A DNA stretch of 27,268 bases, taken from IMG/VR virus record IMGVR_UViG_3300028829_006017, positions 1-27,268 of that record, one strand, 5' to 3'. Origin of the DNA: a virus. The number at the start of each line of letters is the position of its first letter. Within the stretch, counting starts at the first letter, position 1. Positions 22,130-26,082 of this stretch are shown piece by piece. The notes below the pieces were generated by a model. The model ran no database searches and was not told where the DNA came from. It saw nothing but the letters and a program-made list of their open reading frames with translations. A program made the translations under genes and the position numbers.

Positions 22130-22173
22130 ATGATCAGATCATATCAGATTATTTCGGAATGTCAAGAACTTTT
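22130..22173 (-). promoter_or_regulatory. Early (sigma70-type) promoter cassette, copy 3
   Basis: On the minus strand it has AAAAGTTC, -35 TTGACA (22165-22160), a 16-base spacer, -10 TATGAT (22143-22138) and the dyad TGATCTGATCA. The stop of the A-type carrier (22162-22164) lies inside the -35. It should start transcription toward the coiled-coil gene at 22096. Confidence 0.8.
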
Positions 22174-22518
22174 TTTGTATGGTGTGAAAGATTCTCCGCA
22201 GCCGCATTGCTGACCGGATTGTCGAACAAAAATGAATCCCTGTTCAACGAGGTTCTTTGTAGAGAAGTCAATTGTCACGGGTCCAATAATTTCTTCAAAT
22301 AAATCATTATCAACTAAGATCTTAATATCATTTGAAACAAAAGTCAAGTCATGCTCTTGAATATCAGCTTGAGTATTTGTTTCAAGCTCCCAACGCCAAC
22401 CGGAACAGCCACCTTGATTTGCACTTACACGGAGATAGGTGTCATCAAGATTTAAATTCTCTGATTCAAATGATTCAATGAATTTTTCTGCTGCTGTTGA
22501 TGTTAATTCAATTTGCAT
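22162..22518 (-). CDS. A-type iron-sulfur carrier (IscA/ErpA/HesB family)
   Basis: A 118-residue protein, the usual length for the family. LTSTAAEKF at the start, NQGGCSGWRW (Cys38), and the C-terminal QCGCGESF (Cys105 and Cys107) give the three cysteines that bind iron or a [Fe-S] cluster in A-type carriers. These proteins pass clusters from a scaffold such as IscU to target enzymes in the cytoplasm. The phage copy lies in the same direction as the split iscU about 2.7 kb upstream and a second A-type gene at the right edge. The last codons, Lys-Ser-Ser-stop, belong to the promoter cassette. Confidence 0.88.
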   Translation of the reverse strand: MQIELTSTAAEKFIESFESENLNLDDTYLRVSANQGGCSGWRWELETNTQADIQEHDLTFVSNDIKILVDNDLFEEIIGPVTIDFSTKNLVEQGFIFVRQSGQQCGCGESFTPYKKSS

Positions 22519-23119
22519 TTTTCTTCATCTCCATACGGATGTCGATAACTTGTTGAACTAAATCTTGTATGTTTACTTGTAATGCATTTAAGTACTTATT
22601 CAATTCATTCATATCTTTTGCTGAGGTTGTTGAATCTTTAAATTTTTGATATAGCAATTGCACATCGTGTGAATTCGTCATTTCGGTTCTGTGCATTCTT
22701 TCTTCAAGTTCTTGAACCTTTTCTTCCATTTTTGAAATGCGATTATCGCCTTGTGTACCTTTCATCAAATATTTTGAAGTGCCTTCAATACCTGAATTAA
22801 TACTTTGATGTGTAAACCAGGCGTCACTATTAAATGCCTTATCACAAATCATAATATCGTAATGTGGTTTTTTACCAACAGTTAAAGAAGTATACTTACA
22901 TTTCCATGTACCAAGTTGTTCTTCTGTTAAGTCTGTCCAATCAATACCACTTCTTGCACCTCTTGCAGTCCAATAATGAATTTCATGACCTTCATCAAAC
23001 AATGAATTAATATAATTAATTCTGTCAAAGAAAGGTGTATGATTTTTATAATCTTTAGTACCATCTTCAAGAATTTTTTCTTTACAAATAGTACCATCAA
23101 TATCAACATATATGATCAT
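22508..23119 (-). CDS. HAD-family phosphatase-like protein with C-terminal coiled coil
   Basis: A 203-residue protein from ATG 23119; the TTG at 23131 overlapping the upstream stop is less likely. Residues 1-10, MIIYVDIDGT, are HAD motif I (D-x-D-G-T, catalytic Asp6/Asp8). YWTARGARSG (about 49-58) fits motif II, and HYDIMICDKAFN (about 85-96) with following Asp fits motifs III/IV. This is typical of small phage HAD proteins acting on sugar or nucleotide phosphates. The domain ends near residue 110. The rest (about 125-200) is a coiled coil, ISKMEEKVQELEERMHRTEM and later heptads, which probably oligomerises it. It overlaps the A-type carrier start by 11 bases. Confidence 0.75.
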   Translation of the reverse strand: MIIYVDIDGTICKEKILEDGTKDYKNHTPFFDRINYINSLFDEGHEIHYWTARGARSGIDWTDLTEEQLGTWKCKYTSLTVGKKPHYDIMICDKAFNSDAWFTHQSINSGIEGTSKYLMKGTQGDNRISKMEEKVQELEERMHRTEMTNSHDVQLLYQKFKDSTTSAKDMNELNKYLNALQVNIQDLVQQVIDIRMEMKKNAN

Positions 23120-23127
23120 AATATTTC

Positions 23128-23787
23128 TCAATTAATAGTTGTAAATGGTATCCAGTGATTTAACTCATAACTTTCGTATTCATTTTCGTCCTTTCTATAT
23201 TGAGTATTATCAAGATATTCTCTTGGAATAATATCATATGCTATAGTTATTCTCTCTTGGTCATTATCCCATTCTGTTGAACGATGAAAATCATTTTCAC
23301 ATTTTCCAAGTATTATTAAATTATTTCTACTCTCAATATCTATATGCTCTGTTGTACCATCTTCAACTACAAGACGATATTTTGTAAAACTTTCTTGCGC
23401 CTCGGAATCAACAATAAACAATCCATGCCAAGCATTTATACCCGCTGGCCAATGAGAGTGCCAATCAATGTATTCTGATTTTCTATATACATTCAACCAT
23501 GATTGCATATAATATTCATCAGGAACATTAGTTGCATATTCAAACAATTGTTTTAACTGATTGAGTGCTTTTGAAAATTCTGGAAATGGATATAGAAATG
23601 TGTTATAGTATCTGTATAATCCGGTTGTCATTGTTGATTGTCCATCATAATGTCGAATGCCGTCAGGATGAAAATTTTCTTTTACTATTTCATATAGACG
23701 CATTGCTGAATTACGAAACTCTTTATTATCTACATCTTCTAAAAATTTAGTATATATTATATTATAATAATTATCTTCTAATTCCAT
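23128..23787 (-). CDS. Putative 2OG-Fe(II) oxygenase
   Basis: A 219-residue protein. SWLNVYRKSEYIDWHSHWPA (about 96-115) with H110 and H112, then AWHGLFIVDS, NNLIILGKCENDFHRSTEW (H168) and ERITIAYDII (R179) follow the order of the double-stranded beta-helix of 2-oxoglutarate and Fe(II)-dependent oxygenases (2OG-FeII_Oxy_5-like: H-x-H, distal His, R for 2OG). Many phages encode such enzymes, often of unknown substrate (protein hydroxylation, nucleic acid or sugar modification). It lies between a HAD phosphatase and a Hint protein gene. The ATG at 23787 is two bases after its neighbour's end. Confidence 0.68.
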   Translation of the reverse strand: MELEDNYYNIIYTKFLEDVDNKEFRNSAMRLYEIVKENFHPDGIRHYDGQSTMTTGLYRYYNTFLYPFPEFSKALNQLKQLFEYATNVPDEYYMQSWLNVYRKSEYIDWHSHWPAGINAWHGLFIVDSEAQESFTKYRLVVEDGTTEHIDIESRNNLIILGKCENDFHRSTEWDNDQERITIAYDIIPREYLDNTQYRKDENEYESYELNHWIPFTTIN

Positions 23788-23788
23788 A

Positions 23789-24019
23789 TCAATATAAATC
23801 TTCTATGTAGTCGGGTTGAACATTAAAAGGTATGACAGTATATACAACTTTTGATTTGCGATTTGCTTCAGAGGCCATTTTATGTTTGTATGCTGCATCT
23901 TCGTTTGTATATATTGCAGTTACTCCGCTTTCATTTTTCTTTTCCCACATTACTATATAAACTGTAAATGTTAATTTATATTCTGATAATAATGTGATAA
24001 CATCATTCAAATTTGGCAT
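23789..24019 (-). CDS. Small unknown phage protein
   Basis: A 76-residue protein from ATG 24019, whose start overlaps the end of the Hint gene. It contains YKLTFTVYIVMWEKKN and then NEDAAYKHKMASEANRKSKV, ending in VYTVIPFNVQPDYIEDLY. The pattern is a short alpha/beta fold: a strand with Tyr, a helix of Asn-Glu-Asp-Ala-Ala, and a strand. It resembles small phage proteins of the VYvl...S...A type. The function is unknown. Confidence 0.5.
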   Translation of the reverse strand: MPNLNDVITLLSEYKLTFTVYIVMWEKKNESGVTAIYTNEDAAYKHKMASEANRKSKVVYTVIPFNVQPDYIEDLY

Positions 24020-24512
24020 TAAATTCTTCCATACGATCAATTTCACTTTGACTTTGTTCCATCGTCAGTCCACTGACTAATAGACCAGAAGCCAAATAAT
24101 AATTTAAAACACCATCAAGTCCTATATTATATAGTTTATATTGGTCACCTTCTTTTTCAAACTTTTTAAGTTGGTGTTCTTCAACAATACTCTCTTTGGT
24201 TAACACACTAAATGTTCCATGGTGTAAACCTTTAACTTTTTGTCCTATTTCAAGATTCTCAGCTTTGACTTGCACCGAGCCAATACCTGACTGATAGAAT
24301 ACGGTATCAAGTGCGCAAGTCAATACTTTTTCTACACCTTCAAAACGAACTTTTATAAGTTGGTCCATAGATTTAAGAATAGTTTGTACATATGTTACTG
24401 TATGCACACCCATCTTAATACCATCAAGAGCAATAACTTGATCACCTATTCTTAAATTTCGAACTTTAACTGCACCATCAGGTACATAGATTCGTGTTGA
24501 TGGTCCTAACAT
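24003..24512 (-). CDS. Free-standing Hint (hedgehog/intein-type) domain, splicing residues lost
   Basis: A 169-residue protein. LGPSTRIYVPDGAVKVRNLR then IGDQVIALDG (2-30) is the intein block A pattern (C-x-x-x-x-T-x-(I/V)-...-dG...i.dl..GD.V...dG). EKVLTCALDTVFYQSG occupies the block B place without the usual T-x-x-H His. VKAENLEIGQKVKG matches the A-x-x-L-x-x-G-D/Q-x-V segment. The C-terminal YNIGLDGVLNYYLASGLLVSG matches blocks F/G, where splicing inteins end VHN. Here Met1 sits at the Cys1 position and Ser147-Gly148 replace His-Asn, so splicing or cleavage is not expected. About 21 residues follow. The domain may bind or be structural; its role is unknown. Confidence 0.72.
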   Translation of the reverse strand: MLGPSTRIYVPDGAVKVRNLRIGDQVIALDGIKMGVHTVTYVQTILKSMDQLIKVRFEGVEKVLTCALDTVFYQSGIGSVQVKAENLEIGQKVKGLHHGTFSVLTKESIVEEHQLKKFEKEGDQYKLYNIGLDGVLNYYLASGLLVSGLTMEQSQSEIDRMEEFNAKFE

Positions 24513-24515
24513 ATA

Positions 24516-24725
24516 TTATCCCATCACTGGTTCATTTGACATCATTGTCATGTTATAATTGTCATCAGTTGGCTCAAGGCCATTTGCTGCAGCATGATCA
24601 TCAATAATTTTTTGTCTTGCTGCAATATATTCATCCTTGTTAGCATTTTCGGTTAAAAATTCTTCTGTTTGTCCAATTTTTTCTTTTTTATACCAAACAC
24701 TATAATATATCATTGACTTTTTCAT
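24516..24725 (-). CDS. Small unknown phage protein
   Basis: A 69-residue protein. MKKSMIYYSVWYKKEKIGQT begins a beta-turn-beta part, then a charged helix (NKDEYIAARQKIIDDHAAAN), and the end is NMTMMSNEPVMG. It is directly upstream of the Hint gene, whose ATG is three bases after its stop. A late promoter box precedes it (24760-24768). No family recognised. Confidence 0.5.
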   Translation of the reverse strand: MKKSMIYYSVWYKKEKIGQTEEFLTENANKDEYIAARQKIIDDHAAANGLEPTDDNYNMTMMSNEPVMG

Positions 24726-24759: not shown

Positions 24760-24768
24760 GTATTTATT
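24760..24768 (-). promoter_or_regulatory. Possible T4-type late promoter box
   Basis: On the minus strand AATAAATAC overlaps the 3' end of the 154-residue gene and lies 35-43 bases before the ATG at 24725. It is close to the consensus but lacks the G of the better boxes. Confidence 0.45.
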
Positions 24769-25228
24769 TCTTTTCTAAAAGCATTTTTCTCAACTCTCCT
24801 ATTTGAGAATATAATTCATCAATCTTTGAATGCAAATATTCATCACCTTCAATTTGTGGATAAAATTGTCTTGCTTCTTCCATTGTAAGAGCAGATTCAT
24901 ATACATCAAATCTTAGCAATAGTTTACCCGCTACACTTAGGTCTGGATATTTCTTACCATAATATCCCGCAGTAAAACCTAATGACTTACGAAAATAATA
25001 TTGATATTCGGAAGTCAGTGTTTCAATTTGTTTGATTACAGCATTAAGCATTTCTTCAGCATGTATTTTTAATTCAGAAAGTGATGGTTTTTTCTCACGA
25101 TTCCAATTTAAAAACCATTTCTGATCCATGCCAGATATTGCCTTGTGTACTAACTCAAAGTTGAAATCTTCAAGAACTATTGCTTTAAGTTTTCGAATCT
25201 CATGTATTCTATCACCATATAAATTCAT
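24764..25228 (-). CDS. Unknown phage protein
   Basis: A 154-residue protein. VHKAISGMDQKWFLNWNREK (about 27-46) followed by KPSLSELKIHAEEMLNAVIK and SLGFTAGYYGK, then LLLRFDVYES. This W.W....vPs...lk..A..ll..~......GF.a......l.L.F.ve pattern is found in small proteins of many phages with no known function. The C-terminal 30 residues are a helix (IDELYSQIGELRKMLLEKK). Its ATG overlaps the iscU stop (ATGA, 25225-25228), so it is translated with the Fe-S scaffold; a link to Fe-S chemistry is not shown. It was checked as an HscB co-chaperone and lacks a J-domain HPD. Confidence 0.55.
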   Translation of the reverse strand: MNLYGDRIHEIRKLKAIVLEDFNFELVHKAISGMDQKWFLNWNREKKPSLSELKIHAEEMLNAVIKQIETLTSEYQYYFRKSLGFTAGYYGKKYPDLSVAGKLLLRFDVYESALTMEEARQFYPQIEGDEYLHSKIDELYSQIGELRKMLLEKK

Positions 25229-26082
25229 AATGTTAAACTCTCTTTCTTTTTACGGTAGTCAGCAATTGCTGCTTTGATTGCATCTTCTGCCAAAACAGAA
25301 CAATGAATCTTTACAGGTGGTAAACTCAACTCTTCAACGATATCTTTATTACTGATCTCCATTGCATTATCAACTGTCTTACCTTTAATCCATTCAGTTG
25401 CCAATGAACTTGATGCAATCGCAGAACCGCAACCAAATGTTTTAAACTTTGCGTCAATAATCTTTTCATTGTCATCAACTTCAATTTGAAGTTTCATTAC
25501 ATCACCACAATTTTTCACAACAACACCAGAATATACTTCATGATCAAAATGTGTGATAATGATATAGTTATTTGTTTCTTCAACTTGTAATGTATAACAA
25601 TCATCTTCAATTGGTGGTTCGTCATAGCAAGGCATTATTAAGCGATGATTTGATTCAAAATCATATATGTCTGCATTAATTTCTGATTGAACACCTCTTA
25701 CAAAATCAGAAGTTTTAATATCTTCAATTGCTTTATATCCATTTTCGACAGTAAGAAACTGATGATCCTTTGTTACACGAACTTTACGATCACCAATTTC
25801 ATAAGTAAATAAATATTTTTTACCAGAATACACAACCTTCGCCATTTTAAATTTATAAGTATCTTCATTTATACTATATGACCAAACATTAATTGTACGT
25901 TTAAGTGTATATGCTTCTTCCAATGAAATATATTGTTGAACTGGTGTATGTATTAACGTTTCTCCACCAAAGCATTCTGGCGCACCAACAAGACCAGTAC
26001 CTACATTTTCTTTAGTTTTATCAAGAGATCCAACATTTTTTGGATTGTCATAATGTTCCATAACTTCTTTAGAATAAGCCAT
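25225..26082 (-). CDS. iscU: Iron-sulfur cluster scaffold IscU interrupted by an intein
   Basis: A 285-residue precursor. Residues 1-36 plus 192-285 join into a complete 130-residue IscU that is very similar to the E. coli protein: MAYSKEVMEHYDNPKNVGSL, the junction GAPE/CGDVMK, FGCGSAIASSS (Cys218) and LPPVKIHC (Cys261). The three cluster-ligand cysteines, the Asp of CGD, and the LPPVK site for the HscA chaperone are all present. IscU receives sulfur from IscS and assembles [2Fe-2S] clusters in the cytoplasm. Residues 37-191 are the intein. AGGAG lies upstream of ATG 26082. It is co-transcribed with BI-1 upstream and the 154-residue gene downstream. IscS and HscA/B are not in the window. Confidence 0.93.
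   Translation of the reverse strand: MAYSKEVMEHYDNPKNVGSLDKTKENVGTGLVGAPECFGGETLIHTPVQQYISLEEAYTLKRTINVWSYSINEDTYKFKMAKVVYSGKKYLFTYEIGDRKVRVTKDHQFLTVENGYKAIEDIKTSDFVRGVQSEINADIYDFESNHRLIMPCYDEPPIEDDCYTLQVEETNNYIIITHFDHEVYSGVVVKNCGDVMKLQIEVDDNEKIIDAKFKTFGCGSAIASSSLATEWIKGKTVDNAMEISNKDIVEELSLPPVKIHCSVLAEDAIKAAIADYRKKKESLTL
25510..25974 (-). mobile_element. Mini-intein (no homing endonuclease) at the catalytic cysteine of IscU
   Basis: A 155-residue insertion within the iscU frame. It starts with Cys37 of the precursor in CFGGETLIHTP (block A), has GDRKVRVTKDHQFLT with T104-x-x-H107 (block B), and ends VYSGVVVKN (block G), followed by Cys192 as +1 residue. The penultimate residue is Lys rather than the usual His, seen in a minority of active inteins. 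Only about 50 residues separate block B from blocks F/G, so there is no room for a LAGLIDADG or HNH endonuclease. Splicing would leave GAPE-CGDVMK with no scar. Confidence 0.88.

Follow-up and report, generated by a model that had tools for sequence, protein, structure and literature searches.

A stretch of viral DNA 27,268 bases long, hereafter the window (IMG/VR record IMGVR_UViG_3300028829_006017, from a metagenomic bacterial virus; G+C 33.8%), carries what is, judged by sequence, a complete Hint domain encoded as an independent gene. Autoprocessing is what Hint domains are known for. The product of this gene (24003–24512, minus strand, 169 amino acids; P0001) is homologous to Hint proteins, its catalytic residues are replaced in all three virus lineages in which the gene is known, it is under purifying selection, and it did not arise by duplication of the mini-intein in the neighbouring iscU gene. 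The reading that we prefer, at a probability of roughly 55%, is that a Hint fold devoid of exteins and splicing chemistry is kept as a small protein that works as a binding or adaptor module in the accessory set of the iscU-iscA operon. An ancestral Hint fold would have lost its exteins and all of its splicing chemistry, and the virus would have kept an ordinary small protein. What was left would be a beta-rich Hint scaffold with a short, predicted-helical tail under purifying selection, which most likely belongs, with the orphan genes next to it, to one accessory set. The protein would then act by binding a partner, its helical tail may take part in this, and its role would concern the viral Fe-S assembly genes.

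Homology to the Hint superfamily is supported by significant similarity over blocks A, B and F/G, the blocks that the original prediction had recognized and that phmmer, a profile search and a shuffling test bear out. A phmmer search of the PDB matched P0001 to 2LWY, a bacterial intein-like (BIL) domain of Clostridium thermocellum (E=1.5e-6). Pfam yielded PT-HINT (PF07591, 9.5e-5) and Hint_2 (5.5e-4), each under its gathering cut-off; for PT-HINT the score of 23.1 bits stays below the 27.7 bits that define membership. Scanning bacterial genomes with the P0001/2LWY alignment retrieved BIL domains of Acetivibrio, Ruminococcus and Sinomonas with tblastn E-values of 2e-10 to 1e-5, which are relative to the candidate stretches, and P0001 scores 20.8–37.3 bits against these domains. 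An HMM made from BIL domains only placed P0001 at E=1.5e-12 among all ORFs of the sequence set, a search that is no blind test since the BIL domains had been retrieved via P0001. The N-terminal 95 residues scored 22–29 bits against the Acetivibrio and Ruminococcus BIL domains and a phage portal intein, and 60 shuffled sequences reached at most 10.6 bits. The best PDB matches of an AlphaFold model built on a ten-sequence alignment including BIL domains (mean pLDDT 58.6, pTM 0.54) were all Hint folds, from BIL domains, inteins and Hedgehog proteins (best E 3.7e-6, TM 0.40–0.52); as this weak model was seeded with BIL sequences, the fold match is partly circular and is taken as supporting, not independent, evidence. 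A model from three sequences, without BIL domains, had a pLDDT of 33.9. PHROGs gave only weak matches to the Hint protein, and searches with PADLOC and NCBIfam gave none.

The Hint ORF runs from the ATG at 24512 to the stop at 24003, and its start codon (24510–24512, minus strand) falls, by alignment with BIL domains and by the DNA itself, at the position of intein Cys1. Directly upstream lies an orphan gene of 69 amino acids (24516–24725, minus strand) in the same frame, and a single codon, TAT, stands between its TAA and the Hint ATG, so that there is no hidden in-frame N-extein and nothing is translated ahead of the domain in that frame. In the homologs found in contigs L007 and L008 the open frame ahead of the ATG is four codons long, and thus in three contigs the domain is its own gene without an N-extein. 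The gene is neither an in-frame insertion flanked by the N- and C-exteins of a host protein, as an intein is, nor half of a split intein, for its N- and C-terminal parts both lie within one ORF. It starts 713 bases downstream of the iscU stop (25225) on the same strand, close to the 700 or so given in the original prediction, whose phrase that an intein seemed to have become an independent gene is apt for an ORF that begins exactly at Cys1. The Hint core occupies approximately residues 1–148 and is followed by a tail of 21 residues, for which a helix (151–168) is predicted at low confidence.

Alignment with BIL domains also confirmed the three residue losses that had been read from the sequence. 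Met1 stands at Cys1. The TxxH of block B has become A-L-D-T, with Ala67 replacing the Thr and Thr70 (codon 24303–24305, minus strand) replacing the catalytic His. The terminal His-Asn of block G is Ser147-Gly148 (24069–24074, minus strand). In addition, the block F His is a Leu. The same places in the L007 and L008 proteins hold Met at Cys1, S-x-D-T in block B, Val in block F and KP (L007) or KS (L008) at the end. Consequently, the catalytic set of inteins (Cys or Ser at position 1, the block B His and the terminal Asn) is absent from all three proteins, and Cys66, Asp69 and Thr70 are invariant among them. All three have a Thr at the position of the catalytic His, which was therefore probably lost before they diverged. 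Since an N-extein, a nucleophile and a terminal Asn are all missing, the known routes of splicing and cleavage are excluded on established mechanism.

L007 and L008 are virus contigs from other metagenomes that encode a 171-amino-acid Hint homolog directly after iscU, with the Hint ATG overlapping the end of iscU. These homologs match P0001 with pairwise E-values of 3e-29 and 5e-30 at 30–33% identity, and the intein-containing IscU products of the two contigs are 73% identical to that of the window. The allele of a further contig, L001, is identical in DNA to that of the window. The known carriers are thus three virus lineages (window/L001, L007 and L008) that form one clade. A GTDB scan with a profile of the Hint family found nothing, no Hint homolog was present in 41 virus contigs reached via a neighbouring Bax-inhibitor-like gene or IscA2, and the L008 protein had no match among sequenced phages. 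Between L007 and L008 the Hint gene has a dN/dS of 0.15 (bootstrap 0.08–0.25) at a dS of 0.73, which indicates that the gene is kept by selection and is not a relic; in IscU the ratio is 0.12 for the extein and 0.32 for the intein.

Much the same neighbours recur in the three lineages, but their order differs. The window order is iscU, a 154-amino-acid orphan gene, the 69-amino-acid gene, Hint, an 85-amino-acid ORF, a 2OG oxygenase-like gene, a HAD-like gene and iscA2, and in L007 and L008 it is iscU, Hint, a 159-amino-acid gene, a 62-amino-acid gene and iscA2, gene names in both cases being partly assigned by reading. In all three, Hint stands downstream of iscU and upstream of another gene for an A-type carrier, accompanied by homologs of two orphan genes. 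The first of these (24764–25228, minus strand, 154 amino acids) corresponds to the 159-amino-acid gene and diverges together with the free Hint. The other, which follows the Hint gene (23789–24046, minus strand), is 85 amino acids long when read from a GTG and corresponds to the 62-amino-acid gene by a homology test that used its 76-amino-acid version from an ATG. The 69-amino-acid gene was not found in L007 or L008. The conserved operon ends with iscA2 (22162–22518, minus strand), similar to annotated iscA/erpA genes. The ORF at 22508–23131 encodes a protein of 207 amino acids whose N-terminal part is HAD/kinase-like (phrog_1238, 3e-21; phrog_415, 1.1e-7) and whose C-terminal part looks like a coiled coil. 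Between the window and L007/L008, identity is 31–33% for Hint, 24% for the 154/159-amino-acid protein, 34–36% for the 85/62-amino-acid protein and, within IscU, 65% for the intein and 80% for the extein; between L007 and L008 the respective values are 84%, 90%, 92%, 76% and 86%. This pattern shows that the Hint gene diverges in step with the two orphan genes, and not with the IscU intein.

The iscU gene of the window (25225–26082, minus strand; TIGR01999 iscU, 3.7e-63; TIGR01445 intein_Nterm, 5.4e-6) is interrupted by a mini-intein of 155 amino acids (25510–25974, minus strand). It has no endonuclease and retains Cys1, TxxH and the terminal Asn, with Lys as the penultimate residue instead of His. 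The site-a IscU inteins that were read (window, L007–L010 and L046) all end in Lys-Asn or Arg-Asn and not in His-Asn. The original prediction had raised the question of whether the free Hint is a sister of this intein, and for the mini-inteins the answer is negative. Full-length comparisons of free Hints with site-a IscU inteins gave at most 1.5 bits, which is noise level, against the 21–37 bits of P0001 with BIL domains, and hhalign assigned a probability of 0.1% to a match between the free Hint and IscU intein families. AU tests rejected trees in which the free Hint was constrained as sister of the mini-inteins (p=0.003 and 0.013) but did not reject a deeper placement as sister to all IscU inteins (p=0.35 and 0.55); they used 5000 replicates, fewer than the program considers necessary for a dependable result. 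A duplicate of the neighbouring mini-intein is ruled out by these three lines together. As to deeper relationships, the free Hint and the IscU inteins were separate in one tree and joined with 100% support by two long branches in a second; ultrafast bootstrap values thus conflict between the two alignments, and those at deep nodes are not to be trusted.

Several other explanations were weighed against an adaptor module. The original prediction had proposed a decoy, chaperone or dimer partner of an intein, and a trans-acting modulator of the adjacent mini-intein, be it chaperone, inhibitor or decoy, that times IscU activity is possible though unlikely, with adjacency and co-occurrence as the points in its favour. 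The Hint gene is present in all three lineages with an endonuclease-less IscU mini-intein and in none of seven virus records (fragments) with an intein-less IscU, and the overlap of the Hint start with the iscU stop in L007 and L008 suggests coupled translation. These two points, shared presence and adjacency, speak for the idea. However, the co-occurrence may reflect a single event, since the three lineages together make up one clade, and the records that lack the gene are only fragments. The Hint protein is unrelated to the mini-intein by hhalign, bit scores and AU tests, and its sequence changes much more quickly than that of the intein (31% versus 65% identity), in step with the orphan genes. 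Records with larger IscU inteins (L009–L011 and L046, also fragments) have no Hint gene; the one that was tested, in L009, has an HNH match. Lactobacillus phage P1 has a similar dead Hint gene and, in the part of its sequence that was read, no further Hint. The proposed service to the intein is weakened by the co-divergence with orphan genes and by the phage P1 case, and the reuse of a structural Hint fold, which the original prediction also offered, is the best-supported option. A role in virions or DNA metabolism, with the place in the Fe-S operon a matter of chance, seems unlikely as well: gene order does vary between lineages, which makes the position look loose, but Hint stays between iscU and iscA2 in three out of three.

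Non-canonical inteins exist, and the invariance of Cys66, Asp69 and Thr70 in the three proteins could indicate that some autoprocessing or nucleophile chemistry is retained through unusual residues such as Cys66 and Thr70. We regard this as improbable, as there is no N-extein to serve as substrate, the start Met occupies the Cys1 position, the proteins do not conserve the terminal Asn and Cys66 aligns with no known catalytic position. It is more improbable still that a stop at the junction of N-extein and intein split a single former intein-containing gene into the 69-amino-acid ORF and the Hint ORF, the 21-residue tail being the C-extein. The shared frame, the mere TAA TAT between the ORFs and a break exactly at Cys1 would fit such a split, but the L007 and L008 homologs follow iscU and carry the tail with no 69-amino-acid homolog, and no uninterrupted protein joining the 69-amino-acid part to the tail was found in phages; the 69-amino-acid ORF is therefore unlikely to be an N-extein. 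Least probable of all is that an intein or BIL domain died recently and that its remnant is now being lost from the genome. The catalytic residues are gone and no function is known, as a relic would have it, but the ORF is intact in all contigs, its start and tail are conserved, the dN/dS of 0.15 is measured at a dS of 0.73, and the gene sits in the same operon in lineages that are only 31% identical.

Among known systems, the BIL/PT-HINT domains exemplified by 2LWY are closest by sequence, being full-length Hint domains with the same blocks. Those of Acetivibrio, Ruminococcus and Sinomonas are embedded in longer frames and keep Cys1, TxxH and HN, whereas P0001 has all of these residues replaced and an unflanked N-terminus; it thus lacks both the conserved catalytic residues and the embedding in a longer protein that characterize BIL domains. 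The site-a IscU inteins (window, L007–L011 and L046) have the Hint fold that is predicted for P0001 and, in three lineages, share its operon. They differ in having Cys1, TxxH and Asn and in being embedded in IscU, and the mini-inteins among them are not sisters of the free Hint. The best phage tblastn match to P0001 is the portal intein of mycobacteriophages of the genus Bixzunavirus (Colt, ET08; 31% identity over residues 4–87, E=7e-3), which unlike P0001 lies inside a portal protein, keeps Cys1, TxxH and HN and has an insertion between its Hint halves. The nearest precedent that we found is yeast HO/WHO, intein-derived genes that stand alone without exteins, as the phage Hint gene does, and have lost the C-terminal intein motif; HO does not splice (PMC7282813). 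HO/WHO retain an endonuclease and a zinc finger (PMC7282813), while the phage gene is viral and encodes 169 amino acids of Hint and short tail, in which a Pfam scan found no endonuclease or zinc-finger match.

A fold search of viral proteins (BFVD) returned several Hint-sized proteins, including A0A1S5RCV4 of Lactobacillus phage P1, which appears, from phage and length, to be LVP1_g075. This gene of 143 amino acids, annotated as a hypothetical protein (phage P1 61821–62252, equal to L108:12822-13253), is a second free-standing, splicing-dead Hint gene, with Pfam matches to Hom_end_hint (2.6e-5) and Hint_2 (4.3e-5). Gly occupies its Cys1 position and Gln replaces the block B His; the protein ends in His-Asp, the terminal Asn being replaced by Asp, and no extein follows. 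The gene is conserved, again annotated as hypothetical, in phages P2, Maenad and Satyr; the Maenad and Satyr homologs are 58.7% identical to it and have an annotated start 27 codons earlier. In this family dN is approximately 0.29 and dS is saturated. LVP1_g075 resembles P0001 in being a free-standing Hint gene with Cys1, the block B His and the terminal Asn replaced, but its replacements are others, it has no tail and its origin is apparently separate. BLASTP detected no similarity between the two proteins, and dead free-standing Hint genes are thus present in at least two phage groups, in which they probably arose by separate routes. A general Hint HMM over the phage P1 sequence that was read detected no Hint besides LVP1_g075; the Lactobacillus group has a dead Hint without any detected intein to serve. 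The same fold search returned further Hint-sized viral proteins of 132–172 amino acids (A0A8S5P792, A0A8S5VRF6, A0A218MLH4, A0A1C3NFC5 and A0A2Z3EFP0).

A chemistry-free, Hint-only gene under selection in three related viruses, together with its apparently separate Lactobacillus phage counterpart, suggests that viruses reuse the fold beyond splicing and turn it into a structural or binding module. Searches of the open-access literature did not turn up any description of an inactive Hint standing alone in a phage. A bolder reading, which we hold only tentatively and think rather doubtful, is that such genes are a recurrent, undescribed phage class, recruited more than once, and that here the protein would control the maturation or activity of a phage IscU whose active-site cysteine is intein-interrupted. 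The cultured Lactobacillus phages offer a laboratory system in which to test the reuse of the fold, and the IscU operon permits a direct test of a dead Hint acting on a live intein.

Two inteins interrupt one phage IscU gene in L010 (5529-7109) and L011 (6001-7440), at GAPA|C and FKTYG|C, both conserved IscU cysteines; the second intein is incomplete, ending with the contig in L010 and with the available stretch in L011. In L007 (6379-7932), the apparent start of a substrate-binding lipoprotein gene precedes an ORF that resembles a reverse transcriptase, and a group II intron may have inserted there. An ORF of L001 (60-1193), upstream of the Fe-S genes of the phage, reads as a TRAP-transporter substrate-binding protein, and an ORF in L012 (5392-7287) reads as a sugar-nucleotide epimerase-like protein that is itself interrupted by an intein.
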